Shown piece by piece: positions 11,123 to 42,013 of a stretch of 62,125 nucleotides of DNA. The stretch is from Dactylosporangium siamense. GTDB lineage: Bacteria; Actinomycetota; Actinomycetes; Mycobacteriales; Micromonosporaceae. The DNA lies in NCBI RefSeq assembly GCF_016862795.1, contig NZ_BONQ01000022.1, forward strand, positions 1-62,125, in the 5' to 3' direction. The notes below the pieces were generated by a model. That model was not told the origin of the DNA. It did not search any database and worked only from the letters and a program-made list of their open reading frames with translations. Within the stretch, counting starts at the first letter, position 1. Each line of letters starts with the position of its first letter. The position numbers and the translations under genes were made by a program.

Positions 11123-11127
11123 CGACC

Positions 11128-12015: not shown

Positions 12016-12024
12016 AGAGATTTG

Positions 12025-12060: not shown

Positions 12061-12075
12061 GACAGAGTAAGAGCG

Positions 12076-13504: not shown

Positions 13505-13552
13505 AAATGAAAAAACGCAAAAGGCCCGGCCGCTGCGAACAGCGAACCGGGC
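13505..13552 (-). terminator. Terminator of the DUF4190 gene
   Basis: On the minus strand GCCCGG (13552-13547) pairs with CCGGGC (13529-13524), with an inner CGCT/AGCG stem, followed by CTTTTGCGTTTTTT. It lies 26 bases after the stop of the DUF4190 gene. Confidence 0.85.
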
Positions 13553-13577
13553 GATTGCGTGGTGCTCAGCGCGGGGT

Positions 13578-14156: not shown

Positions 14157-14355
14157 TGCGGTGGCTCCTAAGGCTGGGGACTGCTTATCGAGACGCGTTT
14201 CGCATCAGGGTAGTCCCGAGGGGGATACGGAACTTTGGCAGCGTACTGGTCAGGATCGAATCTTCGCAGTGCCGGAACGGTGGAACATCGACAGCACGCC
14301 TGATTTGCCACTATATGTCGCCCGGCCCGGCGCTGAGCAGGGCTGACCCGGTCGG

Positions 14356-14361
14356 TAGAGT
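14356..14361 (+). promoter_or_regulatory. -10 box of purN, leaderless arrangement
   Basis: TAGAGT ends 6 bases before the purN GTG at 14368. No ribosome-binding site lies between, so the transcript probably starts at or next to the GTG. Confidence 0.6.
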
Positions 14362-14367
14362 TTCACG

Positions 14368-22168: not shown

Positions 22169-22200
22169 AAAAGGGGCCCTTCAGTCGAAGGGCCCCTTTT
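22169..22200. terminator. Bidirectional terminator between icd and the GT2 gene
   Basis: AAAAGGGGCCCTT (22169-22181) pairs perfectly with AAGGGCCCCTTTT (22188-22200) around CAGTCG. Each strand has a T-run at the 3' side. The GT2 stop codon (22202-22200) touches its right arm. Confidence 0.93.
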
Positions 22201-23126
22201 CAAATGCCGTGACCCCGGCGGTGCAGGGCGCCCAGGACGCTTTCGACCTTGACCACGCCCGTGACGGCGGCGAGGGCGATCGCGGCCCGGGGTTCGCGCC
22301 AGTTGGAGCGCATCGCGGCCTTGGTCCAGAGCCAGGCGTCGCGGCGGTTGCCCGAGGCGGCGGACCAGCACGCGAGCTGGCCGTAGACGCGGCCCGCACC
22401 GGTTCCGGAGCCGGCGATCTCCGGGTGGCGCGTCATCATCCACCGCAGTGAGGCCATTTTGGTGGCGTACTCGTAAGCGAACATCGATGTGCGCCCCCAC
22501 AGGACGCGGACGAGCGGCTCGTCGACGTGGACGATCTCGCCGCGTTTGGCGGCCCGCAGCAGCAGGTCCCAGTCCTCGTTCTGGCTGCCCGGCGCGTCCT
22601 CGGCGACGAGGCCCATCTCATCGTCGGCGAACACGAAGCGGCGCACCAGAAACGTCGACGAGTGCAGCATCGACATCCGGGAGCGGACCAGGTCGTCGAG
22701 GCCCACCAGGGTCGCCCCGGCGAGGCGGGGGGTGAGCCGGTCGCCGAACTCGACCTCGATCGCCGCCGTGCAGAACTCCGCCTGAGGACGCTGCTGCAGT
22801 GCGAGGACCTGGCGGCGCAGCTTGGTGGGGGTCCACGCGTCGTCGTCGTCGCAGAAGGCGACCAGGTCGGTGTCCAGGGCCACGATGCCGGTATTGCGGG
22901 CCCCGGCAAGACCGGGCTTGCGCAGGTTGGGCAGGACGTCGAGGGGCCGGTCGCCGCCACGGCAGAGGGTCACGTCCGGGTCGTGCTGGTCGAACACGAC
23001 GATCGTGCGGACCGGGCCCGGGTAGTCCTGGGCGATGATGCCCTCCACGGCGCGGGCGAGCAGCTCGGGCCGGTTGCGGGTCGGCACCACCACGCCCACG
23101 CTGGGCCAGTGTCCGGCGGTGTTCAT
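22200..23126 (-). CDS. Family 2 glycosyltransferase
   Basis: A 308-residue GT-A fold transferase. The start VGVVVPTRNRPELLARAVEG is the nucleotide-sugar entry strand, and LVAFCDDDDAW carries the metal-binding acidic (DXD) run. A later NEDWDLLLRAAKRG is the typical ED acceptor-site motif. The last 80 residues are basic with amphipathic helices. It probably adds a sugar to a lipid-linked or surface glycan on the cytoplasmic face; donor and acceptor unknown. ATG 23126 overlaps the upstream sulfotransferase stop (ATGA), so the two form an operon. Confidence 0.9.
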   Translation of the reverse strand: MNTAGHWPSVGVVVPTRNRPELLARAVEGIIAQDYPGPVRTIVVFDQHDPDVTLCRGGDRPLDVLPNLRKPGLAGARNTGIVALDTDLVAFCDDDDAWTPTKLRRQVLALQQRPQAEFCTAAIEVEFGDRLTPRLAGATLVGLDDLVRSRMSMLHSSTFLVRRFVFADDEMGLVAEDAPGSQNEDWDLLLRAAKRGEIVHVDEPLVRVLWGRTSMFAYEYATKMASLRWMMTRHPEIAGSGTGAGRVYGQLACWSAASGNRRDAWLWTKAAMRSNWREPRAAIALAAVTGVVKVESVLGALHRRGHGI

Positions 23127-24046
23127 CGGGCACCCCGGTAGCCGTACATGCCGAGCAGCGGTGCGGTGAGCGCGCTGACGACGCGCCGCTGCCGCCCCGG
23201 CAGGGCCGTGCGCCACGCGTCGTCGCGGCGCAACGGGACCGGGCCGACGGTGAAGCGCATCGGGTTGCCGGCCGCGCTGTGACAGGGGCCGAGCTCCGCG
23301 GTGCCGCCGCTGAGGAAGTCCATGCCGCCGCTGGCCAGTCCCGAGAATTCGGAAATTTCCGATAGGACGGTCTCCGGGGAGTCCAGCAGTGACTCGTAGC
23401 GAACCCGCATGACCGGCACGCCGCACCGGTCCAGCACCGACAGCGCCATGTTGTGCGCGTTCCACAGCAGCGCCGACCGGCCGGGCGAGTACCGGGTCAT
23501 CTCCTCCAGGCCGTCGGTCTCCGGCCGCGTCACCTTCTTCGTCCAGGAGTATGCGACGCCCCGGCTGTCCCGGACCATGTGCACCACCCGCAGGTCGATG
23601 CTCGGCGCGAACCGCAGGCAGTACGCGAGCGCCGCGTGCTTCGACGAGTCGACCAGCACCGAGGCCCCGGACACGACCGCGGCGGCCTCGTAGAGCCGGG
23701 CGTACCAGTCGGCGTACTCCTCGACGAGCAGCCGGTGCGAGGGGCTCATCCGGACGCTGGCCAGCCGCGGAATGTGCCTGGTCCGCTCGACCGCGTGCCG
23801 CAGCGCGAGCACCCGCCACACGTCGACGTGCTGCCACCCGCCGAATGCCTTCTCCCCGACCGCCTGCCAGAAGTCGCAGGATGAGAAGTGTGCCCCGCAG
23901 GCGCAGCGCTCGTCACCGGCGACGTCGCGCTCCCACAGGTGGACGACCTCGCCGAGCGGGCACACGCCGGGCAGCTCGCCAAGCAGGCGCTCCAGCAGGG
24001 TGGTCCCGCTACGCCCGAGCCCGCCGAGGAACAGAACGCGTACCAA
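23123..24046 (-). CDS. PAPS-dependent sulfotransferase
   Basis: A 307-residue enzyme with the 5'-phosphosulfate loop GGLGRSGTTLLERLL (residues about 8-22) and the 3'-phosphate motif VVHMVRDSRGVAYSW. Such enzymes move sulfate from PAPS to sugar or small-molecule hydroxyls. A cysteine cluster (CACGAHFSSC) near residue 50 may be structural. TTG 24046 is the start: AAGGAGG lies 5 bases upstream and the first strand follows at once (VRVLFLGGLG). It is coupled to a GT2 gene, so the acceptor is probably a glycan. The APS kinase at 31.7 kb would supply PAPS. Confidence 0.9.
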   Translation of the reverse strand: MVRVLFLGGLGRSGTTLLERLLGELPGVCPLGEVVHLWERDVAGDERCACGAHFSSCDFWQAVGEKAFGGWQHVDVWRVLALRHAVERTRHIPRLASVRMSPSHRLLVEEYADWYARLYEAAAVVSGASVLVDSSKHAALAYCLRFAPSIDLRVVHMVRDSRGVAYSWTKKVTRPETDGLEEMTRYSPGRSALLWNAHNMALSVLDRCGVPVMRVRYESLLDSPETVLSEISEFSGLASGGMDFLSGGTAELGPCHSAAGNPMRFTVGPVPLRRDDAWRTALPGRQRRVVSALTAPLLGMYGYRGAR

Positions 24047-24073
24047 CCGTCCTCCTTGGTCGTTTTGGTAGAT

Positions 24074-24092
24074 ATGCCAGCTGTGCTGGCAT
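24074..24092. promoter_or_regulatory. Palindrome between divergent glycan genes
   Basis: ATGCCAGC (24074-24081) and GCTGGCAT (24085-24092) are perfect inverted repeats with TGT between. It sits midway in the 79-base gap between the sulfotransferase and the WecB/TagA-type gene, so a regulator bound here could affect both. Confidence 0.55.
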
Positions 24093-24125
24093 CTGTTACC
24101 TCTAACGACGAATTACGGATGAACG

Positions 24126-24968
24126 ATGCTGCACACCAGAGCGCGCTGGCGGCGGGTCCCTCTCGGCGGCCTCTCCGTGGACCCATTGACCGAAGCGGAA
24201 GTCGTCTCCCACGTATGCTCGGCGCTGGCTCGCGGCGAGGGCGGCTGGATCGTCACGCCCAACGTCGACATCCTCCGCCAGGTGTCCCGCGACCCCCAGT
24301 TGCGCGCCCAGCTCCGCGAGGCCGACCTGGTCGTCGCCGACGGCACGCCCCTGGTCTGGGCGGCCCGCCTCGCCGGCTGGAACCTCCCCGCCCGCGTCGC
24401 CGGCTCAGACCTGATCTGGTCGCTCTCCCGGGCCCTCGCCGCCGACGGTGGCAGCGTCTTCGTCCTCGGTGGCACACCCGCCGCCGCTGACCCCGATGGT
24501 GCCCACCGCGCCGCGGCCAGTCCCGATGGTGCCTACCGCGCCGCCGCTGTCCTTGCCGACGACTGCCCCGGCCTGCGCGTCGCCGGCACGCTGTGCCCTC
24601 CGTTCGGCTTCGATGCCGACCCCGCGAGCCTCGAAGCCGTGTGCGCCGCCGTCATCGACGCCGAGCCGGAGATGGTCTACGTCGGCATCGGCTTCCCGCG
24701 CCAGGAGCACCTGATCCGCCGGCTGCGTGCGGCGCTGCCCGGCACCTGGTTCCTGGGCTGCGGTGCCGCCGTGAACTTCGTGGCCGGCGACATCCAGCGG
24801 GCGAACCCGGCCATGCAGAAGGCCGGCCTCGAGTGGCTCGACCGCCTCGCCCGCGAACCTCGCCGGCTGGCGCGCCGCTACCTGCGCGAGGACGCGCCGT
24901 TCGCCGCGGCGCTGCTGGCGCGGTCGTTGCATCACCGGCTCACCCACCGGCCCGCGCATCGCGCCTGA
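24126..24968 (+). CDS. WecB/TagA/CpsF-type glycosyltransferase
   Basis: A 280-residue GT-E fold enzyme adding N-acetylmannosamine-type or related sugars to lipid-linked precursors. Family motifs: VTPNVDILRQ, VVADGTPLVWAARLAG, VFVLGG, YVGIGFPRQE and GCGAAVNFVAGDIQRAN, with LEWLDRLAREPRRLARRYL near the end. A 20-residue insert at about 122-141 comes from a tandem 30-base duplication (24491-24550). No strong ribosome-binding site is seen before ATG 24126. It is divergent from the sulfotransferase/GT2 pair and convergent with mfd. Confidence 0.9.
   Translation: MLHTRARWRRVPLGGLSVDPLTEAEVVSHVCSALARGEGGWIVTPNVDILRQVSRDPQLRAQLREADLVVADGTPLVWAARLAGWNLPARVAGSDLIWSLSRALAADGGSVFVLGGTPAAADPDGAHRAAASPDGAYRAAAVLADDCPGLRVAGTLCPPFGFDADPASLEAVCAAVIDAEPEMVYVGIGFPRQEHLIRRLRAALPGTWFLGCGAAVNFVAGDIQRANPAMQKAGLEWLDRLAREPRRLARRYLREDAPFAAALLARSLHHRLTHRPAHRA
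24491..24550. repeat. 30-bp tandem duplication in the WecB/TagA-type gene
   Basis: 24491-24520 and 24521-24550 match at 24 of 30 positions and keep the frame, encoding PDGAHRAAAS then PDGAYRAAA. It falls between two conserved strands, where it should be a surface loop. Confidence 0.8.
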
Positions 24969-24989
24969 AGCGGTCGCGGACCGCACCGG

Positions 24990-27900
24990 TCAGGACACCG
25001 GCACCGGATCTCCGAGCACCGTCTTCAACAGCTCGGCACCCCACTCCAGCAGCTGCGTGTCACGCATCGGCTCGCCACCGACCCGGCGGGTCGACGGGCG
25101 GGGCAGGGAGACCGTGTCCGCCGCGGCCTTGTAGACCGACTCCGGGTAGAGGCGCTTGAGACGCATCTGCTTCGAGTCGGCGAGCTGCAGCGGGCCGAAG
25201 CGGACGTGCTTGCCCTGCAGTGAGACGTCGGTCAGGCCGTAGGCGCGGGCGAGGAACCGGAACCGGGCGACCGCGAGCAGGTTGGCGACGGGCAGCGGCG
25301 GCTCGCCGTAGCGGTCCTTCATCTCGGCCACGATCTCGTCGAGGGCCGGGTCGTCCTTGGCGCCGGCGATCTTGCGGTAGATCTCGAGGCGGAGGCGCTC
25401 GGCGGAGATGTACTCCAGGGGCAGGTGGGCGTCGACGGGCAGGTCGATCTTGACGTCGGGCTCCTCCTCCTCGGGGCGCTCGCCCTTGAACTGCGCGACG
25501 GCCTCGCCGACCATCCGCACGTAGAGGTCGAAGCCGACGCCCTCGATGTGGCCGGACTGCTCGCCGCCGAGGAGGTTGCCGGCGCCTCGGATCTCGAGGT
25601 CCTTCATCGCGACATACATGCCGGCACCGAGCTCCGTGTGCTGCGCGATGGTGGCGAGCCGCTCGTGGGCGTGCTCGGTCAGCGGCTTGTCCGGCGGGTA
25701 GAGGAAGTAGGAATACGCGCGCTCGCGGCCGCGGCCGACGCGGCCACGGATCTGGTGCAGCTGGGACAGCCCGAGCAGGTCGGCGCGCTCGACGATCAGG
25801 GTGTTGGCATTGGGGATGTCGATGCCGCTCTCCACGATCGTGGTGCAGACGAGGACGTCGTATTCCTTCTCCCAGAAGCCGACCATGATCTTCTCGAGGG
25901 CGTCCTCGGTCATCTGGCCGTGCGCGACCGCGATCCGGGCCTCGGGGACGAGATCGCGCAGCTTGCGGGCGGCGCGCTCGATCGACTCGACCCGGTTGTG
26001 CAGGTAGAAGACCTGGCCGTCGCGGAGCAGCTCGCGGTGGATGGCGGCGGAGATCTGCTTGTCGTCCTGCGCGCCGACGAAGGTGAGGACCGGGTGCCGC
26101 TCCTCCGGCGGGGTGGCGATCGTCGACATCTCGCGGATGCCGGTGATCGCCATCTCCAGGGTGCGGGGGATCGGGGTGGCGGACATGGTGAGCACGTCGA
26201 CCGAGGCCCGCAGCTGCTTCAGGAACTCCTTGTGCTCGACGCCGAAGCGCTGCTCCTCGTCGACGATGACCAGGCCGAGCTGCTTGAACCGGGTCGCGGT
26301 CTGCAGCAGCCGGTGGGTGCCGATGACGATGTCGACGGTGCCGTCGGTGACCTTCTCCATGGTCAGCTTCGTCTCGGTCGGGGTCTGGAAGCGCGAGAGC
26401 TGCCGCACCTCGACCGGGAACTGCGAGACCCGCTCGGAGAACGTGTTGAAGTGCTGCTGCGCGAGCAGCGTCGTCGGCACGAGCACGGCGACCTGCTTGC
26501 CGTCCTGGACGGCCTTGAAGGCGGCGCGCACCGCGATCTCGGTCTTGCCGTAGCCGACGTCGCCACAGATGAGGCGGTCCATCGGGGTCGGCTTCTCCAT
26601 GTCGCCCTTGACCTCTTCGATCGCGGCGAGCTGGTCGGGGGTCTCCTGATACGGGAACGCGTCCTCCAGCTCACGCTGCCACGGCGTGTCGGGGCCGAAC
26701 GCGTGACCCTGCGAGTTCTGCCGGACCGCATAGAGCTGGATGAGCTGCGCGGCGATCTCCCGGACCGCCTTGCGGGCCCGCGACTTCGCCTTCTGCCACT
26801 CGGAGCCGCCCATCTTGTGCAGGGTGGGCGTCTCCCCGCCGACGTAGCGGGACAGCTGGTCGAGCTGGTCGGTGGGCACGAAGAGCCGGTCGCCGGGCTG
26901 GCCGCGCTTGGTCGCGGCGTATTCCAGGACCAGGTATTCCCGGTCGGCGCCGTTCACCGTGCGCTGGACCATTTCGATGTATCGCCCGATGCCGTGCTGC
27001 TCGTGCACCACGTAGTCGCCGGTGCGCAGCTCCAGGGGGTCGATCTGGTTGCGCCGCCGCGAAGGCATCTTGCGCATGTCCTTGGTGGACGCGCCGCGCC
27101 CGCCGGAGATGTCGGTGCCGGTGATGATCGCCAGGCGGGCGCCCTCGTCGAGATAGCCGTTGCCGAGCGAGCCGGTGGTGACGGTGACGATTCCGGGCGC
27201 GGGCACTTCCGAAATGCCGTCGGCCAGCACGACACCCAGACCGGCGTCGCGCAGCACCTCGACGGCGCGCTGGGCGGGACCACTGCCCTCGAACACGAGG
27301 GCGAGACGCCACCCGTCGCCAGCGAGCCGCTTCAGGTCGTCGACCACTCGGGCGGTCTCACCGTGATACAGCGGCGCGGGCTGCGCCGGCAGCGCGATGG
27401 TGATCGCATCGTCGGAGACGACCACCGGCAGATCCTCGCCGAGACGCCAGGGCTCGTCGGCAGCCACCGACGACGCGTCCAGAGAAAAAGCACTCAGCGA
27501 CCACCACGGCAGCCCGAGCGACGCGGCGGCCGCGCGCACCTCGGACAGGCTCTTGAACGCGGCCGCGCCGAGGTCGATCGGCGCCTTCCCGCCGACCGCG
27601 GCGGCGGCCCAGCTCGCCTCCAGGAACTCCTCGCTGGTGCGGACCAGGTCGTGCGCCCGGGTGCGGATCCGCTCCGGGTCGCACAGCAGCACGTGCGTGC
27701 CGGCGGGCATGGTGTGCAGGACCAGCTCGAGGGAGTCGGTGTCGCCGAGCAGCGCCGGCGCCAGGGACTCCATGCCCTCCACGGGGATGCCGCCGGCCAG
27801 CTTGTCCAGCAGCTCCGCCAGCTGCGGGTGGTCGGTCGACAGTGCCGCGGCCCGGGCCCGGACCTCGTCGGTGAGCAGCAGCTCCCGGCACGGCGGCGCC

Positions 27901-28580
27901 CACAGCCGCTCGACCTTCTCGATGGTGCGCTGGTCGGCGACGGCGAAGGAGCGGATCTCCTCGACCTCGTCACCCCAGAACTCCACCCGCAGCGGGTGCT
28001 CCTCGGTCGGCGGGAACACGTCGAGGATCCCGCCGCGCACCGCGAACTCGCCGCGCTTGGTGACCAGGTCGACCCGCGCATAGGCGAGGTGCGCCAGCCG
28101 CGCCACGAGCTCGTCGAGGTCGGCCGCGTCGCCGCCGGACAGGGCCACCGGCGAAAGATCACCCAGGCCCTTGAGCTGCGGCTGCAGCACGGACCGGACG
28201 GGCGCCACGACCACCCGGGGCAGGCCCGCGTCGGGTGTGGGGTGCGCGAGACGGCGCAGCACGGCCAGGCGCCGCCCGACGGTGTCGGAGCGGGGGGAGA
28301 GGCGCTCGTGTGGCAGCGTCTCCCAGGCCGGGTAGACGACGACGTCAGCGGGGTCGAGGAGACAGCCCAGGGCCGCGGCGAGATCCTCGGCCTCCCGGCC
28401 GGTGGCGGTGACCGCCAGGACCGGCCGTTCGGCCGCCACGACCGCCGTCACGAAGGTGCGCAGCGACGGCGGCGCGGTCAGGTCGACCTGATCGCTGCGA
28501 CCGCCCCGGGCCAGGTCACGGACACGGGCGAGCGCGGGGTCGGTGAGAGCGGCGGAGGTCAGACCGGCAAGCCTTGGCAT
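24990..28580 (-). CDS. mfd: Transcription-repair coupling factor
   Basis: A 1196-residue superfamily 2 translocase that removes stalled RNA polymerase and recruits UvrA. N-terminal UvrB-like module ([20 protein letters not shown]), the RNA-polymerase interaction domain ([19 protein letters not shown]), helicase motifs [45 protein letters not shown] and [15 protein letters not shown], the RecG-like [18 protein letters not shown], and a C-terminal TRCF domain. The open frame extends to 29078 but ATG 28580 gives the normal start and length. A -10 box TAGGCT lies 72 bases upstream. In M. tuberculosis mfd precedes mazG on the same strand; here it faces away, with 13 kb between. Confidence 0.96.
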
Positions 28581-28651
28581 TGGAGCAACCCATCTGCACG
28601 GCAAACAACCCCGGCACCCAGGATGGGCGGGGGGTGTATCGAGCAGTACCA

Positions 28652-28657
28652 GCCTAT
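28652..28657 (-). promoter_or_regulatory. -10 box of mfd
   Basis: TAGGCT on the minus strand (28657-28652), the same hexamer used before sucC and eno. It implies a leader of about 65 bases before ATG 28580. Confidence 0.45.
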
Positions 28658-28788
28658 CCCCGAGGTCTGACAAAACCACCGAGGGTAAGGGACGAAGGGT
28701 TTGCGTGGGAGCGCAGCGAGCATGAGGGTAGGAGAGACAGAAACAGTGGCGTGACTCACCGGAACGGCACGGTGCGTCGCGGCAGCCG

Positions 28789-28794
28789 ATACGA
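28789..28794 (+). promoter_or_regulatory. -10 box of ppc
   Basis: TACGAT fits TANNNT and predicts a start near 28801, 48 bases before the ppc ATG. No convincing -35 box. Confidence 0.35.
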
Positions 28795-28848
28795 TGCCGG
28801 TGAAAACGGACAGCGCCGTCCCAGCCGACTCGTCCGGAGGGATCCAGC

Positions 28849-31674
28849 ATGTCTGCAGAGGCACCCGCGTCCAGCGACGCCGACGCCGCGCTGCGCGCCG
28901 ATATCCGTCGCCTCGGCTCGCTGCTCGGGCAGAGTCTCGTGCGGCAGGACGGCCAGCAGCTGCTCGACCTCGTCGAAGAGGTCCGCGCGCTGGTCCGCAC
29001 CGACCCTGAGGCCGCCGCCGAGCGCCTGACCGGCCTCGACGTGGTCGCCGGCACCCAGCTGGCCCGGGCGTTCTCCACCTACTTCCACCTGGCCAACATC
29101 ACCGAGCAGGTGCACCGGGCGCGCGAGCTGCGCCGCATCCGCGTGCGTGAGGGCGGCTGGCTGGAGCGGGCCGCGAAGCTGATCGCCGACCGCGGGGTCG
29201 GGGTGAAGGAGATCAGCTCGATCGCCTCGAAGCTCGCGGTGCGGCCGGTGTTCACCGCCCACCCGACCGAGGCCGCCCGCCGGTCGATCCTGACGAAGCT
29301 GCGTGCCGTCGGCGACGAGCTCGACGCCGAGGCGGTCGCGACCGCGCTGGACGGCTCGCTCGAGCCGGACAAGACCCGCACGGCCCGCACCGACCGCCGG
29401 CTGGCGGAGCTGCTGGACCTGCTGTGGCAGACCGACGAGCTGCGGCTGGAGCGGCCCGAGCCGAGCGACGAGGCCCGCAACGCCGTCTACTACCTCGCCG
29501 ACCTGGCCACGGGCGCGGCCCCGCAGGTGCTCGACGACCTGTATGACACGCTCAAGGACCTCGGGGTGCAGCTGCCCCCGACCGCCCGCCCGCTGAGCTT
29601 CGGCTCGTGGATCGGCGGCGACCGCGACGGCAACCCGTTCGTCACCCCGGCCGTCACCCGCGACGTCCTGCTGATCCAGCATGAGTACGGCATCCGCGCC
29701 GCCGAGAGCATCATCGACGGCCTGATCGACGAGATCTCCGTCTCCAAGCGCCTGCGCGGGGTGTCGCTGGACCTGTCCGCGAGCCTCGCCGCCGACCTGG
29801 ACAACCTGCCGGAGCTGCCGGCCCGCTACCGGCGGGTCAACCTCGAGGAGTCCTACCGGCTGAAGCTGCGCTGCATCCGGCTCAAGCTCCAGCACACCCG
29901 CACGCGGCTGGCCACCGGCACCCCGCACAAGCAGGGCCGCGACTACCTCGGCACCGGCGAGCTCATCGCCGACCTGGAGCTGATGCGGGCGTCCCTGGCC
30001 CGCAACGGCGGCCAGCTCGCCGCGACCGGCAAGCTCGCCTCGGCGATCCGGACGCTGTCCGCGTTCGGCCTGCAGCTGGCCACGCTCGACGTGCGGGAGC
30101 ACGCGGACGCGCACCACGAGGTGCTGTCGCAGCTGTACCGCCGGGTCGGCGAGGTCGAATACTCGCACCTGGACCGCGACGCGCGCCGCCAGCTGCTGAT
30201 CGACGAGCTCAACGGCCGCCGTCCCCTGGCGACCCGCGACACCGGGCTGACCGACACCGCGCGCAAGACGTTCGACGTGTTCGCCGCGATCCGCGAGGTG
30301 CAGGACCGGTTCGGCCCGGAGGTCGTGGAGACCTACATCATCTCGATGACCCAGGGCATCGACGACGTGCTCGCCGCGGTCGTCCTGGCCCGCGAGTGGG
30401 GCCTGGTCGAGGTCAGCGCCGGCGCCGGGTTCGGCGGGGCGTCGATGGAGTCGGCCCGGGCCAGGGTCGGCTTCGCGCCGCTGCTGGAGCAGGCCCGCGA
30501 GCTGGAGATGGCCGGCGAGCTGCTGGACGATCTGCTGTCGATCCCGGTCTACCGGGCGATCGTGCGCGCCCGCAACGACGTGCAGGAGGTCATGCTCGGC
30601 TACTCCGACTCCAACAAGGACGCCGGCATCACCACCTCGCAGTGGATGATCCACAAGGCGCAGCGGCAGCTGCGGGACGTCGCCGCCCGGCACGGGGTGC
30701 GGCTGCGGCTCTTCCACGGCCGGGGCGGGACCGTCGGCCGCGGTGGCGGCCCGACCCACGAGGCCATCCTGGCGCAGCCGTGGGGCACGCTCGACGGCGC
30801 GATCAAGGTCACCGAGCAGGGCGAGGTCATCTCCGACAAGTACACGCTGCCGGCCCTGGCCCGGGAGAACCTCGAGCTGACCCTGGCCGCCGTGCTGCAG
30901 AGTGCGCTGTTGCACACCGAGCCCCGGCAGCCCGCCGACGCGCTCGCCCGCTGGGACTCGGCGATGGAGACGGTGTCGACGGCCGCGTTCGCCAACTACC
31001 GCGCCCTGGTGGAGAACCCGGACCTGCCGGCGTACTTCTGGGCGGCGACCCCGACCGAGCTGCTCGGCGCGCTCAACATCGGCTCCCGCCCGTCGAAGCG
31101 GCCGAACGCCGACGCCGGCCTCGGCGGGCTGCGGGCGATCCCGTGGGTGTTCGGCTGGACGCAGTCGCGGCAGATCGTGCCCGGCTGGTTCGGCGTGGGC
31201 AGCGGCCTGGAGGCGGCCCGGGTCGCCGGCCTCGGCGACGTGCTGCGGGAGATGCACGAGAAGTGGCACTTCTTCGGCACGTTCCTGTCCAACGTCGAGA
31301 TGATGCTGGCCAAGACCGACCTGGAGATCGCGTCGCGGTATGTCGACACGCTGGTGCCCGAGGACCTGAAGCCGGTCTTCGAGGTGATCCGCGCGGAGTA
31401 CGAGAAGACCGTCACCGAGGTCCTCGCGATCACGGGCGAGTCGACGCTGCTGGAGCGCCAGCCGGTGCTGGACCGCACGCTGGGCGTCCGCGACAGCTAC
31501 CTGCAGCCGCTGCACCACCTGCAGGTGTCGCTGCTCGCCCAGTACCGGGCCAGCAAGATCGCCGACAGCGGCGTCTGGGGCGGCGGGCGGAAGTCCTCGC
31601 CGGATCCGGCGCTGGAGCGGGCGCTGCTGACCACGGTCAACGGCATCGCGGCCGGCATGCGCAACACCGGATGA
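28849..31674 (+). CDS. ppc: Phosphoenolpyruvate carboxylase
   Basis: A 941-residue anaplerotic enzyme making oxaloacetate from PEP and bicarbonate. It has the catalytic-histidine motif [12 protein letters not shown] (His138), [13 protein letters not shown], the lysine motif [10 protein letters not shown], the mobile loop [14 protein letters not shown] and the C-terminal RNTG that carries allosteric and active-site contacts. GGAGGG about 8 bases upstream supports ATG 28849. Divergent from mfd; it lies inside the polysaccharide region without an obvious functional link to it. Confidence 0.97.
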
Positions 31675-31723
31675 CCGGACCCCAACGGGGTGAAAACAAA
31701 CCAAGACTGACAGACTGTCGAGC

Positions 31724-33274: not shown

Positions 33275-33357
33275 AAGCGGGCACATCAGCCCATTACGCC
33301 GGACGTCTCGGAAGCGTTAGCCCCTGGAGAACCTGACGCCGAAGGGGCCGCCGCTTC

Positions 33358-35175: not shown

Positions 35176-35239
35176 GTGAGCTTGCGAGCGAGTCATGTGG
35201 CAGGTGTTGGGTCAGGCGCCCGGAGCGAAGTGAGGACGC

Positions 35240-36610
35240 ATGACCGCTGTTGCGAACCATCCCTCACTGCAGGCGGCACCGCGACCAGGTCTGACGCAGC
35301 GGCCGCACCGGCTGCCCGCCTGGCCCGTCACCGGCCTGCTCATGCTCTACCCGCTGTGGTGGGCGCTCGGTCTCGGCACCCTGATCTTCTTCCTGGTCGC
35401 CGTGCCGATGGCGGTGTCGCTGATCCGGCACCGCGCGTCGGGCCAGTTCGTCAAGCTGCCGCCGGGGTTCCTGCTGTGGCTGCTCTTCCTGGCCGTGGTC
35501 GGCCTCGGGCTGTTCAGCCTCGGCGCCGACCCGACCGGCACCGTGCCGGGCACCGCGGCCAGCCGCCTGGTGTCCTTCGCGTTCCGGCTCGGCGGCTACC
35601 TGGCGCTGACCGTCATCCTGGTCTACGCCGGCAACGTCGACCGCCGCGAACTGCCGCAGCGGCGCTTCATCCGGCTGCTCGCCTGGCTGTTCGTCGTCAC
35701 CGTCGCCGGCGGGCTGCTCGGCATGGCCGCGCCGACGTTCGAGTTCACCGCGCCGCTGGAGCTGCTGCTGCCGCACCACCTGCGCGAGAACGGCTTCATC
35801 CAGTCGCTGGTGCACCCGACCGCCGCACAGATCATGAACCTGCTCGGCGGCGAGACCCCGCGACCGGGCGCGCCCTGGGGGTACACCAACACCTGGGGAA
35901 ACAACGTCTGCCTCCTGGTGGGCTGGCTGCTCGTCGCGGGCTGGTCGCTCACGAAGAGCCGCCGCACCAAGGCGTTCACGATCGCGACGCTGCTCATCGC
36001 GATGGCGCCGATCGTCTACTCGCTCAACCGGGGCCTGTGGATCGGGCTCGGGGTCATGGTGCTGTACGTGGCGGTGCGGCTGGCGCTGCGCGGGCGGTTC
36101 GCCGCGCTGGGCCTCGTCGGGGTCGCCGGCGTGGTGGTCGCCGTCGCCGTCGCCACGACCCCGCTCGGCGACGTGGTCACCGCCCGCCTGGAGGACGGCA
36201 AGTCCAACGGGGTCCGCATGTACACCACGGAGAAGGCCATCGGCGGGGTGGTCGAGTCGCCCCTGATCGGCTTCGGCTCGACCCGCAACACCATCGGCGG
36301 GCGTAACTCGATCGCGGTCGGCGAGAGCGAGGACTGCGAGCGCTGCGGCAACTTCACCATCGGCGGCAACGGCCAGCTGTGGCAGCTCCTCTTCGCGCAC
36401 GGGCTGCTCGGCACCGTCACCTACCTGGGGTTCTTCGTCGTCGGGCTGTGGCGCTTCCGGCGCGACGCGACCCCGGCCGGGCTCGCCGCCACCGCCGCGA
36501 TCGTGTCCAGCTTCGCCGCGATGTTCTGGTACAACGCGCTCGTCTCCCCGCTGGCGCTGACCTTCCTCGCGTACGCCGTCCTGTGGCGCAACCGTTTGGA
36601 GAGCCGATGA
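35240..36610 (+). CDS. O-antigen polymerase/ligase-like membrane protein (Wzy-like)
   Basis: A 456-residue protein with about eleven membrane segments and a large outer loop between roughly residues 170 and 220 (GYTNTWGNNVCLLVGWLLVA follows it), plus a second loop with GFGSTRNTIGGRN and GNGQLWQLLFAHGLLGTV. This is the Wzy_C/O-antigen ligase pattern, where conserved Arg and His in outer loops handle the lipid-linked repeat units. LNRGLWIGLGVMVLY is the usual core helix. Between Wzz-like and Wzx-like genes, a polymerase role is more likely than ligase. ATG 35240 follows AAGTGAGGACGC. Its stop overlaps the next start. Confidence 0.85.
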   Translation: MTAVANHPSLQAAPRPGLTQRPHRLPAWPVTGLLMLYPLWWALGLGTLIFFLVAVPMAVSLIRHRASGQFVKLPPGFLLWLLFLAVVGLGLFSLGADPTGTVPGTAASRLVSFAFRLGGYLALTVILVYAGNVDRRELPQRRFIRLLAWLFVVTVAGGLLGMAAPTFEFTAPLELLLPHHLRENGFIQSLVHPTAAQIMNLLGGETPRPGAPWGYTNTWGNNVCLLVGWLLVAGWSLTKSRRTKAFTIATLLIAMAPIVYSLNRGLWIGLGVMVLYVAVRLALRGRFAALGLVGVAGVVVAVAVATTPLGDVVTARLEDGKSNGVRMYTTEKAIGGVVESPLIGFGSTRNTIGGRNSIAVGESEDCERCGNFTIGGNGQLWQLLFAHGLLGTVTYLGFFVVGLWRFRRDATPAGLAATAAIVSSFAAMFWYNALVSPLALTFLAYAVLWRNRLESR

Positions 36611-37815
36611 GTCCCGTGAAGACCGCCCCGGCCGCACTGCGGGTCGACGACGAGCAGCTGCGCGCGCAGTACATCGAGGAGGTCCTCGCCCTGCTGTACC
36701 CGGGACAGGGGACCGCGACGGTGGAGTTCCTGGTCGTGCCGAACGCCCGCAAGCCGCGGCTGCTGGTGCCCGCCGACGACCGCCGCCTCGCCGCCGCCGC
36801 CGTGCGCCGTTACGCCGAGCCGCAGTCCCGGGTGGCGAAGCTCAAGCGCGACGCGGTCGTCGCCGCCCTGCGCACCGGCGCGTCGTCGGTGCTGCTGCGG
36901 GACCGGCTGCGGGTGACGCCGGGCGCGGACACCATCGACACCTACCTGCGCCGCGTGCTGGAGGCCGACGTGCGGCTCAGCGTCCACATCGGACCCGCGC
37001 GGGCCAACCGCAAGCCGGTGCTGCAGCTGCTCACCGCCGACGGCACCACCACGGCGTTCGCCAAGCTCGGCACGTCGTCGCTGACCCGGGCCCTGGTGAA
37101 GGCCGAGGGCAACGCCCTCGCGGCCGTGTCGACCGCAGGGCTCAAGGCGCTGCGGGTGCCCGGCGCGCTCCACATCGGACAGTGGGGCGAGCACGAGGTG
37201 CTGGTCCAGTCGGCGCTGCCAGTGTGGCGGCCCAGGGCCCCGCTGACCGCGCCCCGGCTGGCCAACGCGATGCGCGAGGTCGCCGCCTGCTGCGGCACCC
37301 GGCGCGGCCGCCTCGACGACAGCGGTTACTGGACCCGCCTGCGCGCCCGGCTCGACGCCGTCGCCGAGCACCCCGAGGGTGGCGCGCTGCGGGCCGCGGC
37401 CGAGCGGATCGCCCGCTCCGCCGGCGGCGTCCAGCTCACGTACGGCTCCTGGCACGGCGACTGGTCACCGTGGAACATGGCCTCCCTCACCGACACGATC
37501 CTGGTCTGGGACTGGGAACGCTTCACCCCCGGCGTCCCGATCGGCTACGACGCGCTGCACCACGCGCTGCAGGTCGGCATCGGCCGGTCCCCGTCGGCGG
37601 GGCAGGCCGTCAACGACCTCATCGACGCCGCGCCCGAGCTCCTGCTGCCGTTCGGCGTGGTGCACCGCCAGGCGGTCGAGGTGACCACCCTGCTGTACCT
37701 CATCGACCTGGCCACCCGGTACGTCACCGACCGGCAGGCGGAGGCCGGCGCCCGGCTGGGCGTGCTCGGCAGCTGGCTGCTGCCCGTTCTCGTCGCGCGA
37801 GTGGAGGCACTGTAA
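36607..37815 (+). CDS. Phosphotransferase (APH/choline-kinase-like) in the glycan operon
   Basis: A 402-residue protein. The C-terminal half is a protein-kinase-like phosphotransferase: catalytic loop SWHGDWSPWN (His283, Asp285, Asn290) and metal-binding VWDWERF (Asp302). The N-terminal half has a weaker nucleotide-binding lobe (FAKLGTSSLTRALVKAEGNA) and a 100-residue leader I do not recognise. Such enzymes phosphorylate small molecules or sugars; here the target may be a glycan residue or carrier. ATG overlaps the polymerase stop (ATGA), so it is co-translated. Confidence 0.82.
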   Translation: MSPVKTAPAALRVDDEQLRAQYIEEVLALLYPGQGTATVEFLVVPNARKPRLLVPADDRRLAAAAVRRYAEPQSRVAKLKRDAVVAALRTGASSVLLRDRLRVTPGADTIDTYLRRVLEADVRLSVHIGPARANRKPVLQLLTADGTTTAFAKLGTSSLTRALVKAEGNALAAVSTAGLKALRVPGALHIGQWGEHEVLVQSALPVWRPRAPLTAPRLANAMREVAACCGTRRGRLDDSGYWTRLRARLDAVAEHPEGGALRAAAERIARSAGGVQLTYGSWHGDWSPWNMASLTDTILVWDWERFTPGVPIGYDALHHALQVGIGRSPSAGQAVNDLIDAAPELLLPFGVVHRQAVEVTTLLYLIDLATRYVTDRQAEAGARLGVLGSWLLPVLVARVEAL

Positions 37816-37817
37816 CC

Positions 37818-38705
37818 ATGCCCGTGCAGATTCCCGACACGATGAAGCGGATCGTCCACTTCGGATCCCGCAACTACGGGCAGCTGACCGCCGGCCGGCG
37901 GATGCTGCCGCAGTTCCTGATCTGCGGCGGTCAGCGCTGCGGCACCACGTCGCTCTACCGGGCCCTCGCCGCGCACCCCGCCGTCATCAAGGCCGTGTTG
38001 CACAAGGGCGTGCACTACTTCGACATCGGCTACCACCACGGGCTGCGCTGGTATCGCGGACACTTCCCGCTGCAGCGGCGGGCGCTGCGGATCCAGGACG
38101 AGCTCGGCGTCCCCGCGCAGACGTTCGAGTCCAGCCCGTACTACATGTACCACCCGCACGCCCTCGCCAGGATCGCCGCGGACCTGCCCGACGTGAAGCT
38201 CGTCGTGCTCGTCCGTGACCCGGTGGAGCGCGCCTACTCGCAGCACGCGCACGAGGTCGCCCGGGGCTTCGAGCCGGAGGTCGACTTCGGCCGCGCCCTC
38301 GCCCTGGAGCCCTCCCGGCTCGCCGGGCAGCGCGAACTGCTGCTCAACGACCCCGGCGCGTACAGCTTCGCCCACCAGCACCACGCCTACCGGGCCCGCG
38401 GCGAGTACATCGAGTACATCGAGCCGATGGCGGCACTGCTCGGCCGCGACCGGATCCACGTCGTGGACAGCACCGAGTTCTTCCTGCGCCCCGAGCCGGT
38501 GTACGACGCCGTCCTGGACTTCCTCGGCCTGCCGCGGGTCGGGCAGTACCCGGCGTTCGAACGGCACAACGCCCGCCCCCGCAACCGCCTCGACGACTCG
38601 ATCGCCTCACAGCTCGCGGCGCACTACGCACCCTTCGACGAGCGCCTGGCCACCTGGCTCGGCCGCCGCCCCTCCTGGCTGTCCACAGCGGACAGTCCGG
38701 CGTGA
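37818..38705 (+). CDS. Carbohydrate sulfotransferase
   Basis: A 295-residue PAPS-dependent sulfotransferase of the heparan-sulfate/NodH-like group. The 5'-phosphosulfate loop is CGGQRCGTTSLYRAL (about 36-50) and the 3'-phosphate motif is LVVLVRDPVERAYSQH. The acceptor loop ESSPYYMYHP and FLGLPRVGQYPAFERHNARP near the end are typical of enzymes using glycans. It starts 2 bases after the kinase stop and overlaps the flippase start. With the APS kinase six kilobases upstream, this argues for sulfation of the product. Confidence 0.92.
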   Translation: MPVQIPDTMKRIVHFGSRNYGQLTAGRRMLPQFLICGGQRCGTTSLYRALAAHPAVIKAVLHKGVHYFDIGYHHGLRWYRGHFPLQRRALRIQDELGVPAQTFESSPYYMYHPHALARIAADLPDVKLVVLVRDPVERAYSQHAHEVARGFEPEVDFGRALALEPSRLAGQRELLLNDPGAYSFAHQHHAYRARGEYIEYIEPMAALLGRDRIHVVDSTEFFLRPEPVYDAVLDFLGLPRVGQYPAFERHNARPRNRLDDSIASQLAAHYAPFDERLATWLGRRPSWLSTADSPA

Positions 38706-40174
38706 CGGCGACGCTCTCCAAACCCACCCTGGAGACGCCCAGCGGCATGCTGCGCGGCGCCGCCCGGGGTGGGCTGGCGAACCTCGCCGGCACCGTCTGC
38801 ACCGGCGTCGCCGGGCTCGGCGTCACCTGGCTCGCCGCCCGCGCCCTCGATCCGCACGGCGCGGGCGCGTTCTTCGCCGCCACGGCCGTGTTCGGCCTCG
38901 GTGTCACCGTCGCCAAACTGGGTGTGCAGACGTCGCTGGTGTACTGGCCGGCCCGGATGCGCGCCGTCGGCGACCTGTCCCGCCTCGGCCAGTGCCTGCG
39001 CACCGCGCTGGTCCCGCTGGCCGTCGCCGCGCTGGTCATCGGCGGTGGGCTGTGGTTCACCGCGGACCTGCTGCCCGGCCGCGCCGACCTGGTGCGGACC
39101 CTCGCGGTGTTCCTGCCCTTCGCCGCGCTCAGCGACGCGCTGCTCGCCGCCACGCGCGGTCTTCGCGCGATGCGGCCCACCGTGCTGCTGGACCGGGTCA
39201 TGCGCCCCGGTCTTCAGCTGGTGTTGCTGGCGCTCGTCTGGGCGCTCGGCTGGGGCCCGGACGTGTTCGCCGCCCTGTGGGCGCTGCCCTACCTGCCCGC
39301 CGCGCTGCTGGCCGGGGTCGCGCTGACGCGGCTGCGCGCGGCGGTGTCTCCCGCCAAAGTCGATATCTCGGATTTCACCCCTCGGCGGTTCTGGGCGTTC
39401 ACCGCGCCCCGCGCCGTCGCCAGCCTCGCCCAGATGGCGCTGCAGCGGGTCGATGTGCTGCTCGTCGCCGCCCTCGCCGGCCTCGCTCCCGCCGCGATGT
39501 ACGCCGTTGCCGGCCGCTTCGTGATTCTCGGCCAGTTCGTCAACCAGGGCGTCACCCAGTCCGTCCAGCCCCGCCTCGCCGAACGCCTCGCGGTGCAGGA
39601 CCAGGCCGGCGCGAACCTGCTCTACCGCCAGGCCACCGCGTGGGTCGTCCTCGCCTGCTGGCCGTTGTACCTGCTGATGTTCACCTACGCGCACCAGTAC
39701 CTGGACCTCTTCGGCGAGCACTACGAGGGCGGCGTGCACATCGTGCGGCTGCTCGCCGTGACGATGATGGTCGCGACCGCGTGCGGGATGGTCGACGTGG
39801 TGCTCGCCATGGCCGGCCGCACCTGGTGGAACCTCCTGAACGTGGGCCTCGCCCTGATCACCATGCTCGGCGTCGACGCGCTGCTGATCCCCCGGCACGG
39901 CGCGTTCGGTGCCGCCGTCGGCCTGTGCGCGGCGGTGCTCGTCAACAACCTGGTCCCCCTCGTCCAGGTGGTGCGTGGCCTCGGCCTGCACCCGTTCGGC
40001 CGGGCCACGCTGCTCGCCTGCGGGCTGGCCACATCGTGTTTCGCCGTGCCGCAGCTGGCCGTGCTGCCGGTCCACGGACTGCTCGTGAAATTCGCCGCCA
40101 CGGGGGCGGGTGCGGCCGCGTACTGCTACGCGGCCGTGCGTTTGAGGCACGTTCTGATGCAGGGGGAACGATGA
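38702..40174 (+). CDS. Wzx-like polysaccharide flippase (MOP superfamily)
   Basis: A 490-residue protein with twelve to fourteen hydrophobic segments and the paired-bundle layout of Wzx/MATE-type exporters. It starts with an amphipathic SGMLRGAARGGLANLAGTVC and has the conserved mid-region RRFWAFTAPRAVASLAQMAL followed by QRVDVLLVAALAGLAPAAMY. It should flip lipid-linked repeat units across the membrane. GTG 38702 overlaps the sulfotransferase stop (GTGA). With Wzy-like and Wzz-like genes upstream it completes a Wzx/Wzy-dependent export set. Confidence 0.9.
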   Translation: MTATLSKPTLETPSGMLRGAARGGLANLAGTVCTGVAGLGVTWLAARALDPHGAGAFFAATAVFGLGVTVAKLGVQTSLVYWPARMRAVGDLSRLGQCLRTALVPLAVAALVIGGGLWFTADLLPGRADLVRTLAVFLPFAALSDALLAATRGLRAMRPTVLLDRVMRPGLQLVLLALVWALGWGPDVFAALWALPYLPAALLAGVALTRLRAAVSPAKVDISDFTPRRFWAFTAPRAVASLAQMALQRVDVLLVAALAGLAPAAMYAVAGRFVILGQFVNQGVTQSVQPRLAERLAVQDQAGANLLYRQATAWVVLACWPLYLLMFTYAHQYLDLFGEHYEGGVHIVRLLAVTMMVATACGMVDVVLAMAGRTWWNLLNVGLALITMLGVDALLIPRHGAFGAAVGLCAAVLVNNLVPLVQVVRGLGLHPFGRATLLACGLATSCFAVPQLAVLPVHGLLVKFAATGAGAAAYCYAAVRLRHVLMQGER

Positions 40175-40917
40175 GAACTGACTACGCGGAGGTCTTCCAG
40201 TCCGATGAGGCGGTCGACAAGTACGAACGGGTGGTCTACGCGCCGGAGACCTACTCGACGGCGGTGAGCGGCCGGCAACGCGCGTTCCTGCGCCGCCTGG
40301 TCCGCCGCGAGTTCACCGCCCGCCGGCCGGTCCAGCACGACTTCGCGTGCGGCACCGGCCGGGCGATCAAGCTGCTGCACGGTGTCGTACGGGCGGCGCA
40401 CGGCTACGACGTCTCCGCCCAGATGCTCGCGAAGGCCCAGGAGGCGGGCGTCTACGCGAAACTGCACCAGGTCGACGGGGAAGGGCCGGTCCCGGAGCCG
40501 GCCACAGTGGACGGACCGGCCCTCGTCACCGTGTTCCGGCTGCTGCTCAACGCGCCGAAGGACGTCCGGGACCGGGCGATCGCGTTCGCCGCGAAGATCC
40601 TGCCGGAGGCCGACTCGGGCCTGCTGGTCGTGGAGAACCACGGCAACCGCTCGTCGCTGCGGCACCTGCGGCACCGCTCCAACCGCGCCAACCAGTGGTT
40701 CGCCGAGCTGCACCACGCCGAGGTCGAGCAGCTCCTCGCCCGGCACGGCTTCGAGGTCGTCGAGCGGCGTGGCTTCGCACTGTGCCCGGCCGGCGCGTAC
40801 CGCCGCGAATGGCTGCGACCGGTCGCCCGGCGCGCCGACGACCTCGCCGCCCGCAGCGGCCGCCTGTCCGGCGTGGCCACCGACGTGCTGTACGTGGCCC
40901 GCCGGATACCCAAGTAG
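40171..40917 (+). CDS. Class I SAM-dependent methyltransferase
   Basis: A 248-residue enzyme. Motif I is DFACGTGRAIKLL, followed by the acidic strand end GYDVSAQML and the post-motif VTVFRLLLNAPKD. A basic segment (SLRHLRHRSNRANQWF) precedes the last strands. The acceptor is not identifiable, but position in the operon suggests a sugar or cap methylation, which in other polysaccharides ends chain growth. GGGGGAACG before ATG 40171 and overlap with the flippase stop support the start. Confidence 0.87.
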   Translation: MRTDYAEVFQSDEAVDKYERVVYAPETYSTAVSGRQRAFLRRLVRREFTARRPVQHDFACGTGRAIKLLHGVVRAAHGYDVSAQMLAKAQEAGVYAKLHQVDGEGPVPEPATVDGPALVTVFRLLLNAPKDVRDRAIAFAAKILPEADSGLLVVENHGNRSSLRHLRHRSNRANQWFAELHHAEVEQLLARHGFEVVERRGFALCPAGAYRREWLRPVARRADDLAARSGRLSGVATDVLYVARRIPK

Positions 40918-40939
40918 CTCTCGGAGGGAAGTGCTCGTA

Positions 40940-42013
40940 GTGAAGCGGATCGGGCTGATCGCCGCCGTCGTGGTCGCCGTCGTGGCCGGGGCGACGGCGG
41001 TGACCCTCACCGTCATGCCCACGAAGGACGCGCCGGCACCCAGGCAGCCGACGCCTTCGGCCGGACCGGCGTCGCCAGGCGCTCCTCCGGCGATCGCCAC
41101 CTCCACCGGTCCGTTCGCGGCCGGCCCCATCGCGCCCCCGAAGCGCGGCTCCTACCTGGGCGCGTGGGTCCGGCCGGAACACCTCACCGAGTCCGGCCGG
41201 CTCACCGCGATGACCGCCTGGGAGAAGTCGGTCGGCCGGAAGATGGCGATCGTCAACACGTACCGCCGCTTCGACGAGAACTTCTTCAACGCCTCCGACG
41301 AGCAGTTCGCCGCTCGCGGCACGACGCTGATGCTGTCGTGGGCGGGCGGCGACACCCGCCTCATCACCATGGGCCGCTACGACGACCTCATCCGCGAGCG
41401 GGCCCGCGAGCTCAAGGCGTTCGGCCGTCCGGTGCTGCTGCGGTACCGGTGGGAGATGGACCGCCCGAACCTGCGCGCCCAGATGTGGTCCGGCGCGGAC
41501 TACGCCGCGGCGTGGAAACATGTGCGGGCCATCTTCACCGCCGAGGGCGCCACCAACGCCTCCTGGGTATGGTGCCCGACCGTGGAGGGTTTCCAGGGCG
41601 GCTACGCGGACGAGTTCTACCCCGGCGACGACCAGGTCGACTGGAACTGCGTCGACGTCTATGCCGGCAGCCGGTATGACACGATCGGCACGCTGATGCG
41701 GGAGTTCCTGCAGTTCTGCGCGCAGCACCCGACGAAACCCGTGATGATCGGCGAGTTCGGGGTGGCCCGCGCCTGGGGCACCGAGCAGCGCGCCACCTGG
41801 CTCGCGGACGCGTCCGCGACCTTCAAGGCCAACCCGCAGATCCGGGCCGTCATGTACTTCGAGTCCGACCCGACCGACAACAAGGGCCCCACGCAACAGT
41901 TCCAGGTCTCCGACGACCCTACGGTCCTCGGCGCCTTCCGCACGTCGCTCGCCCAGGACCCGCACTACACGCCGATGACCGCCGCCGCGGCCGGCAAGGC
42001 CAGGAAGAAGTGA
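40940..42013 (+). CDS. Membrane-anchored GH26-like glycoside hydrolase
   Basis: A 357-residue protein: membrane anchor at residues 5-27, a Pro/Ala linker to about 65, then a (beta/alpha)8 hydrolase-like domain. LLRYRWEMDRP gives Glu172 as likely acid/base and MIGEFGVA gives Glu272 as likely nucleophile, 100 residues apart as in clan GH-A. It looks most like GH26 (beta-mannanase-type). It could trim or release the polysaccharide made by this operon. Two in-frame GTGs exist (40931, 40940); 40940 is preferred because GGAGGG at 40923 then has normal spacing. Confidence 0.83.
   Translation: MKRIGLIAAVVVAVVAGATAVTLTVMPTKDAPAPRQPTPSAGPASPGAPPAIATSTGPFAAGPIAPPKRGSYLGAWVRPEHLTESGRLTAMTAWEKSVGRKMAIVNTYRRFDENFFNASDEQFAARGTTLMLSWAGGDTRLITMGRYDDLIRERARELKAFGRPVLLRYRWEMDRPNLRAQMWSGADYAAAWKHVRAIFTAEGATNASWVWCPTVEGFQGGYADEFYPGDDQVDWNCVDVYAGSRYDTIGTLMREFLQFCAQHPTKPVMIGEFGVARAWGTEQRATWLADASATFKANPQIRAVMYFESDPTDNKGPTQQFQVSDDPTVLGAFRTSLAQDPHYTPMTAAAAGKARKK

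Follow-up and report, generated by a model that had tools for sequence, protein, structure and literature searches.

We analyzed a 62,125-nucleotide stretch of DNA from Dactylosporangium siamense (the window), which is the entire contig C22 (NZ_BONQ01000022.1) of a 12.7-Mb genome (G000), and found that it likely encodes most of a Wzx/Wzy-dependent pathway for a putatively sulfated, methylated, and possibly phosphorylated extracellular polysaccharide. The locus corresponds to the wps-1 cluster in Actinoplanes missouriensis (AMIS_7280-AMIS_7380 together with AMIS_7390; Tezuka and Ohnishi, June 2026, PMC13390465), and its main lines have already been described in that relative. New here are a reading of the adenosine 5'-phosphosulfate (APS) kinase next to the cluster, the assignment of an initiating phosphoglycosyltransferase (PGT) encoded on another contig, and a superlocus in which these genes stand together.

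We compared the window to wps-1, whose genes wpsA to wpsK code for a GT2 glycosyltransferase, a sulfotransferase, a GT26 glycosyltransferase, a DUF4262 protein, a GH26 glycoside hydrolase, a methyltransferase, Wzx, a second sulfotransferase, a kinase-like protein, Wzy, and Wzz, and are adjoined by AMIS_7390, a member of the sulfate adenylyltransferase/APS kinase family (PMC13390465). Single mutants of every wps-1 gene except the dispensable wpsD showed reduced sporangium formation or spore release, and the authors predict a sulfated polysaccharide whose verification is still awaited (PMC13390465). The window shares with wps-1 its gene content except for wpsD, the gene order within each half, and the APS kinase beside wzz. 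It differs in that mfd and ppc split wpsABC from the remaining genes and in that no wpsD gene was called (none appears among the calls between 24126 and 42013, and no search aimed at DUF4262 was made on the window). Homology to the wps-1 proteins was assessed through genome G142 (one contig of 8,773,466 bases). G142 carries wpsA-K in the published order, with proteins 54-70% identical to those of the window, a DUF4262 gene (PF14081, 1.1e-31) at the wpsD position, and an APS kinase following wpsA-K. We infer that it represents A. missouriensis or a near relative.

The gene inventory was obtained by gene calling with a home-made caller and by a Pfam profile search of the window proteins. It contains, each at its place, every gene named in a first-pass annotation of this DNA. 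Start codons are given for the longest or most plausible frames, the caller having chosen later starts for several genes. The first half comprises a GT2 glycosyltransferase (WpsA counterpart, 22200-23126, minus strand; PF00535, 6.8e-16 on a longer frame; also encoded by 18 of the 20 relatives mapped), the sulfotransferase ST1 (WpsB counterpart, 23123-24046, minus strand; PF13469, 5.8e-14, and an alignment of 20 sequences), and a GT26 glycosyltransferase of the WecG/TagA/CpsF type (WpsC counterpart, 24126-24968, plus strand; PF03808, 9.3e-47). Next come mfd (24990-28580, with the open frame reaching 29078, minus strand; Pfam and gene calls) and ppc (28849-31674, plus strand; PF00311, E = 0), which appear to be passengers. 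The second half lies on the plus strand and starts with the two-domain APS kinase (AMIS_7390 counterpart, 31724-33274) and a Wzz/Wzc-like chain-length protein with a GNVR domain (WpsK counterpart, 33358-35175; PF02706/PF13807). It continues with a Wzy-like polymerase (WpsJ counterpart, 35240-36610; PF04932, 1.4e-5, and alignment), a kinase-like protein with an aminoglycoside phosphotransferase (APH) fold (WpsI counterpart, 36607-37815; PF01636, 2.8e-4, alignment, and an AlphaFold2 model), the sulfotransferase ST2 (WpsH counterpart, 37818-38705; PF00685, 2.7e-12 on a longer frame, and alignment), and a Wzx-like flippase (WpsG counterpart, 38702-40174; PF01943, 5.4e-8). An S-adenosylmethionine-dependent methyltransferase (WpsF counterpart, 40171-40917; PF08241, 1.1e-4, above the gathering score) and a probably secreted GH26-like glycoside hydrolase (WpsE counterpart, 40931-42013; PF02156, 3.7e-4, and alignment) complete the locus. 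The Pfam matches of Wzy (25.4 bits, cut-off 31.7) and of the APH-like protein (21.1 bits, cut-off 23.2) fall below their gathering scores, and that of GH26 (20.4 bits) barely exceeds its cut-off of 20.2; we uphold all three assignments because their synteny is conserved. Wzx, Wzy (with the score just given), Wzz, and the glycosyltransferases of a Wzx/Wzy-dependent pathway are all present in the window. The genes had been described as mostly overlapping or a few bases apart, which fits the four 4-bp overlaps and the gaps of 2 and 13 bp seen with the reported starts but not the wider spacing between ppc and the APS kinase (49 bp), the APS kinase and Wzz (83 bp), and Wzz and Wzy (64 bp).

These genes are found together in many relatives. 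Among the matches listed, ST2 and Wzy are encoded within 3.5 kb of each other (wps+) in 102 of 150 family genomes, and 39 genomes have neither gene by our thresholds (wps-). Nine ambiguous genomes were left out of the census, two of which (G063 and G094) have the PGT-CysQ link described below. Census coordinates were transcribed by hand from result tables, and the wps- side may miss cases, three of its 39 genomes being without CysQ among the matches listed. Of 20 loci chosen for the presence of ST2 and Wzy, 19 also encode ST1, Wzz, the APH-like protein, and Wzx, with GT2 present in 18, GT26 in 17, a methyltransferase match in 15 (one being a fragment in G014), and GH26 in 14. The idea of a putative sulfated-polysaccharide locus, put forward in the first-pass annotation, is thus supported both by this co-occurrence and by the published A. 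missouriensis counterpart. Among 80 of 535 loci, relatives of ST2 occur in Actinoplanes, Asanoa, Catellatospora, Glycomyces, Longispora, Pilimelia, Virgisporangium, and Phytohabitans and, outside the family, in Modestobacter, Blastococcus, and a metagenome-assembled genome (MAG) of Thermomonosporaceae. To our knowledge, several of these genera form no true sporangia, and the system would therefore not be confined to sporangia. A phylum-wide search with the Wzy alignment detected 16 of 396 genomes at E ≤ 1e-40, with none of the 14 same-order genomes listed.

We next consider the supply of activated sulfate. In the N-terminal domain of the window APS kinase, IADRPLHRPQ stands where the ATP sulfurylase 1i2d has its motif QTRNPMHRAH, and the residues lost from the motif are presumably catalytic; the P-loop of the kinase domain, GLSGSGKST, is intact. 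The protein thus has the features of a two-domain kinase with an inactive sulfurylase. Its best match in the Protein Data Bank is 3cr8 (1.1e-93), which we take to be the two-domain APS kinase of Thiobacillus denitrificans. In EhAPSK of Entamoeba histolytica, the N-terminal domain has been called catalytically inactive and a similar composition was noted for T. denitrificans, with reference to a paper whose title mentions absent ATP sulfurylase activity in the T. denitrificans protein (PMC13213808). By sequence, the window protein resembles both in fusing a degenerate, ATP-sulfurylase-like N-terminal domain to a C-terminal APS kinase; they differ in organism and role. A bifunctional 3'-phosphoadenosine 5'-phosphosulfate (PAPS) synthase was set aside, as the ATP-sulfurylase motif is lost, and APS must hence come from CysD-CysN. 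CysD scores above its cut-off once in the host genome, on contig C69.

The window APS kinase is the only PF01583 match in the host genome and probably makes PAPS for the sulfotransferases. Deletion of AMIS_7390 left A. missouriensis normal on plates and caused severe sporangium defects, a phenotype that the authors call unexpected (PMC13390465) and that PAPS supply by a kinase of this type would explain. It is possible, if doubtful, that the gene instead serves housekeeping sulfate assimilation and sits beside the cluster incidentally. Of 150 family genomes, 149 encode an APS kinase, wps- genomes among them, and at least 147 encode CysQ; both must therefore also serve other ends. Furthermore, 30 of 101 wps+ genomes have the APS kinase gene either more than 20 kb from ST2 or on a different contig, and AMIS_7390 is not activated together with wps-1 (PMC13390465). 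Against an incidental position, it lies within 20 kb of ST2 in the other 71 of these 101 genomes, is part of the Nonomuraea locus described below, and shows the deletion phenotype just mentioned. As the sole APS kinase detected in the host genome, it would be needed by PAPS-dependent sulfotransferases wherever it is placed. In one genus group (code g35; G034, G060, G079, G093, G105, G121), an ST2 homologue (53-56% identity) adjoins the APS kinase and no close wps Wzy is seen among the matches listed; this homologue is perhaps a relic or has another use. In another group (g4), the wps+ members G045, G082, G096, G122, and G126 have an additional copy of cysQ, 12-13 kb away from ST2.

Both sulfotransferases retain conserved motifs. 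In ST1, Arg-159 and Ser-167 are invariant among 20 aligned sequences, and in ST2 the motif RDPVERA.S is conserved; we take these to be PAPS-binding. Sulfotransferases with predicted PAPS-binding motifs are thus found together with a probable PAPS source, as expected of a sulfated-polysaccharide pathway. We consider it improbable that they act on a target outside the Wzx/Wzy system, such as a lipid, a small molecule, or a protein, and leave the polysaccharide unsulfated. PF13469 and PF00685 are broad families, we found neither a product analysis nor a sulfate measurement for a wps-1-type polymer in the literature, and the wpsB mutant is mild, with nearly normal sporangia (PMC13390465). However, 19 of the 20 relatives mapped retain ST1 and ST2 together with the polymer cassette, and the wpsH mutant resembles the wzx, wzy, and wzz mutants (PMC13390465). 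In addition, PAPS genes and sulfotransferases share one cluster in Vibrio sp. KMM 8419, where second copies of cysC, cysN, and cysD and sulfotransferase genes accompany a capsule for which a sulfated structure has been reported (PMC11641403). The likeness, drawn from the published description, concerns sulfate-activation and sulfotransferase genes within a polysaccharide cluster; the Vibrio capsule is exported by an ABC transporter in a Gram-negative host.

Other cassette proteins have distinctive features as well. The Wzz homologue contains no P-loop (Walker A) lysine in 18 aligned sequences, the lysine expected of a Wzc-type bacterial tyrosine kinase, and it looks like a kinase-dead pseudo-kinase of this class. 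The APH-like protein conserves the motifs HGDW.PWN and W-D-x-E. Its AlphaFold2 model (predicted local distance difference test score 86, predicted template modeling (TM) score 0.85) matches aminoglycoside phosphotransferases, FN3K, and homoserine and choline kinases at low TM. We rejected WpsI as a protein kinase, as small-molecule kinases head the fold search, with low TM values (0.33-0.46, by query length, across the top 20 rows). In GH26, Glu-175 and Glu-275 are invariant in 15 sequences. A second, divergent GH26-like gene (GH26-A) is located near wzz or the APS kinase in 12 of 20 mapped relatives (L050, L058, L062, L249, and others); none was called in the window.

No initiating PGT is encoded within the window, as had been noted at first pass, and in this sense the pathway is incomplete there. 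The host genome encodes seven PF02397 proteins elsewhere, and we assign the initiating step, by linkage and co-occurrence, probably to the one encoded directly before cysQ-cysD-cysN on contig C69 (locus L180). All four genes lie on the minus strand, downstream of glmU-prs-rplY-pth: the PGT (13951-15999; PF02397, and above the cut-off of NCBIfam TIGR03025, exopolysaccharide polyprenyl glycosylphosphotransferase), CysQ-like (13112-13951), CysD (12184-13092, above its cut-off), and CysN (10895-12148, in line after CysD). PGT and cysQ overlap by one base. The CysQ-like protein reaches 80.8 bits, far below the CysQ cut-off of 228.8, and its name therefore rests on context. The PGT has 682 residues, including an arginine-rich, low-complexity N-terminal extension of ~210 residues, and relatives outside the genus have 418-588. 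WecA/TagO was rejected as initiator: the sole PF00953 match in the host genome follows a frame that we read as murF and is MraY by context, so that no WecA/TagO was found.

The PGT tracks wps across the family. Among the matches listed, the PGT-CysQ link is seen in at least 81 of 102 wps+ and in 1 of 39 wps- genomes (Fisher p 4e-18, kinship ignored), inspection adding G002 as a second wps- case. The link is present in 14 of 14 members of the genus group that includes G142 (g30), G142 itself having glmU-prs-rplY-pth-PGT-CysQ-CysD-CysN elsewhere in its genome. Of 20 wps+ relatives whose loci were fetched, 19 have the PGT next to CysQ or CysD, G030 being the exception. In contrast, no PGT is seen in the 20 loci taken from 18 genomes that lack a linked ST2-Wzy pair (17 in which our thresholds detect neither gene, plus the ambiguous G034); in 17 of these 20 loci, CysQ-CysD-CysN directly follows pth. 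A third set of 20 loci was picked partly in search of exceptions. Here, the PGT is present in five of eight wps+ genomes and missing in G023, G116, and G122; on the wps- side, it is missing in G074, G025, G005, G089, G033, G114, and G107 and present in G002 and G091. No junction is visible in G097 or G113.

A tree of 53 loci contains 24 with both wps and PGT, 24 with neither, three with wps only, and two with the PGT only (48 agreeing, 5 discordant). Nine independent wps contrasts gave 5-6 concordant, none opposed, and 3-4 without a PGT difference (median p 0.03); when wps and PGT swapped roles, about five of six contrasts were concordant and none opposed (median p 0.06). An earlier 38-locus tree had no discordant row and five contrasts, all concordant; with only five, p can be no lower than 0.06 and cannot reach 0.05. 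Both trees are quick ones without bootstrap. From the 53-locus tree we dropped G035, G030, G075, G097, G113, and the wps-side entry of G122 (no pth junction), as well as G033 (too few genes), and left off the second loci of G003 and G010.

Several observations weigh against this assignment. Apart from G030 and the limited power of the 38-locus tree, G023, G116, and G122 carry a divergent wps without a PGT at the site, and in G002 (fragmented) and G091 (frameshifted) the PGT is present but no wps was detected. Moreover, any of the six further PGTs of the host genome could prime the pathway. The PGT beside cysQ might thus prime another polymer, such as the imp sporangium-matrix polysaccharide, its link with wps being an accident of shared neighborhood between bracketing housekeeping genes (pth-rplY-prs-glmU and mfd-mazG-eno), which in Nonomuraea indeed flank the locus on both sides. 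We regard this as unlikely, given the lack of the PGT in the 20 loci without linked ST2-Wzy and its tracking of wps even within one genus code (G022 has both; G053, G073, and G089 have neither). In Modestobacter and Blastococcus, the PGT even adjoins the wps GT2 gene. The wps-1 study does not name an initiating enzyme in its main text, where PAPS, cysD, and phosphoglycosyl are not mentioned (PMC13390465), and a literature search weighted to open papers, with PMC13390465 taken without its supplements, found no paper naming a PGT for wps-1. Many genomes also contain paralogous Wzy-sulfotransferase clusters, some with a PGT of their own within 3.5-19 kb (type 2, for example, in G016, G071, G124, and G135; type 3 in G028, G050, G070, G086, G111, and others). 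That a PGT lies near every such cluster did not hold: among the matches listed, one was found within 40 kb on the same contig in 5 of 10 type 2 (divergent) and 10 of 29 type 3 clusters.

We found the PGT, the sulfate genes, and wps-type genes united in a single locus of Nonomuraea gerenzanensis (Streptosporangiaceae; NZ_LT559118.1, 11342769-11379608). Omitting five unmatched genes, its order is eno, MazG, mfd, APS kinase, GH26-A, Wzz, Wzy, APH-like, ST2, Wzx, GT2, ST1, CysN, CysD, CysQ, PGT, pth, rplY, prs, glmU. GT26, the methyltransferase, and the wpsE-type GH26 are unmatched in this locus, a point against our overall reading. The replicon, 11.85 Mb in size and chromosome-like, is filed as 'plasmid I' in a plasmid collection. 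Modestobacter (L158, L173) and Blastococcus (L171) show GT2 followed by the PGT and pth, with the APS kinase at the locus edge in Modestobacter L158 and CysQ-CysD in Blastococcus L171, and in the Thermomonosporaceae MAG (L175) CysN adjoins ST1. Within the family, PGT-CysQ-CysD-CysN is one gene away from GT2 in G012, G040 (Longispora), and G062 and four genes away in G050, and in G035 PGT-CysD-CysN directly adjoins GT2. The proximity of these genes to wps in outgroups and in some family members supports one functional unit that was split in the lineage of the window. It is reasonably probable that filamentous actinobacteria have an ancient, widely distributed, and complete system dedicated to a sulfated glycan, which is not confined to sporangia, builds repeat units of three or more sugars, and was once encoded at one locus. 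The ancestral locus would have run mfd side - APS kinase - wps cassette - cysN-cysD-cysQ - PGT - pth side, much as Nonomuraea still has it, and the dedicated initiating PGT would have been part of the sulfate-activation operon; a break into two parts would have followed in Dactylosporangium and Actinoplanes.

The position of mfd and ppc can be rationalized by gene order. Twenty relatives were mapped, of which G014 was left out as unmappable (badly gene-called); in 17 of the remaining 19, the two halves are adjacent, 0 to 6 genes apart, the exceptions being G064 and G106. D. fulvum (L097) has contiguous halves and reads mfd, ppc, APS kinase, Wzz to GH26, GT26, ST1, GT2, IDH; Planosporangium (G022) has the same order plus four extra genes. 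Inverting the block from mfd to GH26 in the D. fulvum order yields that of the window in one step. We infer that a single lineage-specific inversion placed mfd and ppc between the halves. The locus had been described as wrapped around these two genes, which do intervene but probably take no part in its function. D. aurantiacum (G064) has the window's order, its proteins in the mapped region matching at 80-99%. Two further inversions, with the GH26/GT26 edge in common, are seen in D. vinaceum (G106/L096) and in Dactylosporangium sp. AC04546 (L098). Of four named Dactylosporangium strains (L096-L099), D. fulvum has its halves adjacent; each of the others has a different inversion, and all three inversions share this edge. 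A repeat-driven flip is not claimed: 50 imperfect inverted-repeat pairs occur in 22 kb, and none of the 25 listed joins both inversion edges.

From these comparisons we propose a pathway, in which all enzyme activities, the identity of the first sugar, the order of decoration, and sulfation itself are predictions. CysD-CysN would make APS, which the two-domain kinase would convert to PAPS. The PGT encoded before cysQ-cysD-cysN would load the first sugar-1-phosphate onto undecaprenyl phosphate, and GT26 and GT2 would add at least two further sugars. The repeat unit should thus have three or more sugars, compared with two in the hypothetical wps-1 model (PMC13390465). ST1 and ST2 would sulfate the lipid-linked unit in the cytosol, where the methyltransferase would methylate it and the APH-like kinase may phosphorylate it, and the CysQ-like phosphatase would clear the by-product 3'-phosphoadenosine 5'-phosphate. 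Wzx would then flip the unit, Wzy would polymerize it under the apparently kinase-dead Wzz/Wzc, and GH26 would trim the chain.

Sulfated polysaccharides are hardly documented in actinobacteria, according to PMC13390465 and our literature search. The comparison offers answers to two gaps in the wps-1 system, namely its initiating enzyme and the AMIS_7390 phenotype. The cassette is found in 102 of the 150 sampled family genomes, counting the matches listed, and also in Modestobacter, Blastococcus, Nonomuraea, and a Thermomonosporaceae MAG. If the reading of an old and dedicated system is true, these bacteria may in general bear sulfated glycans on their surface.

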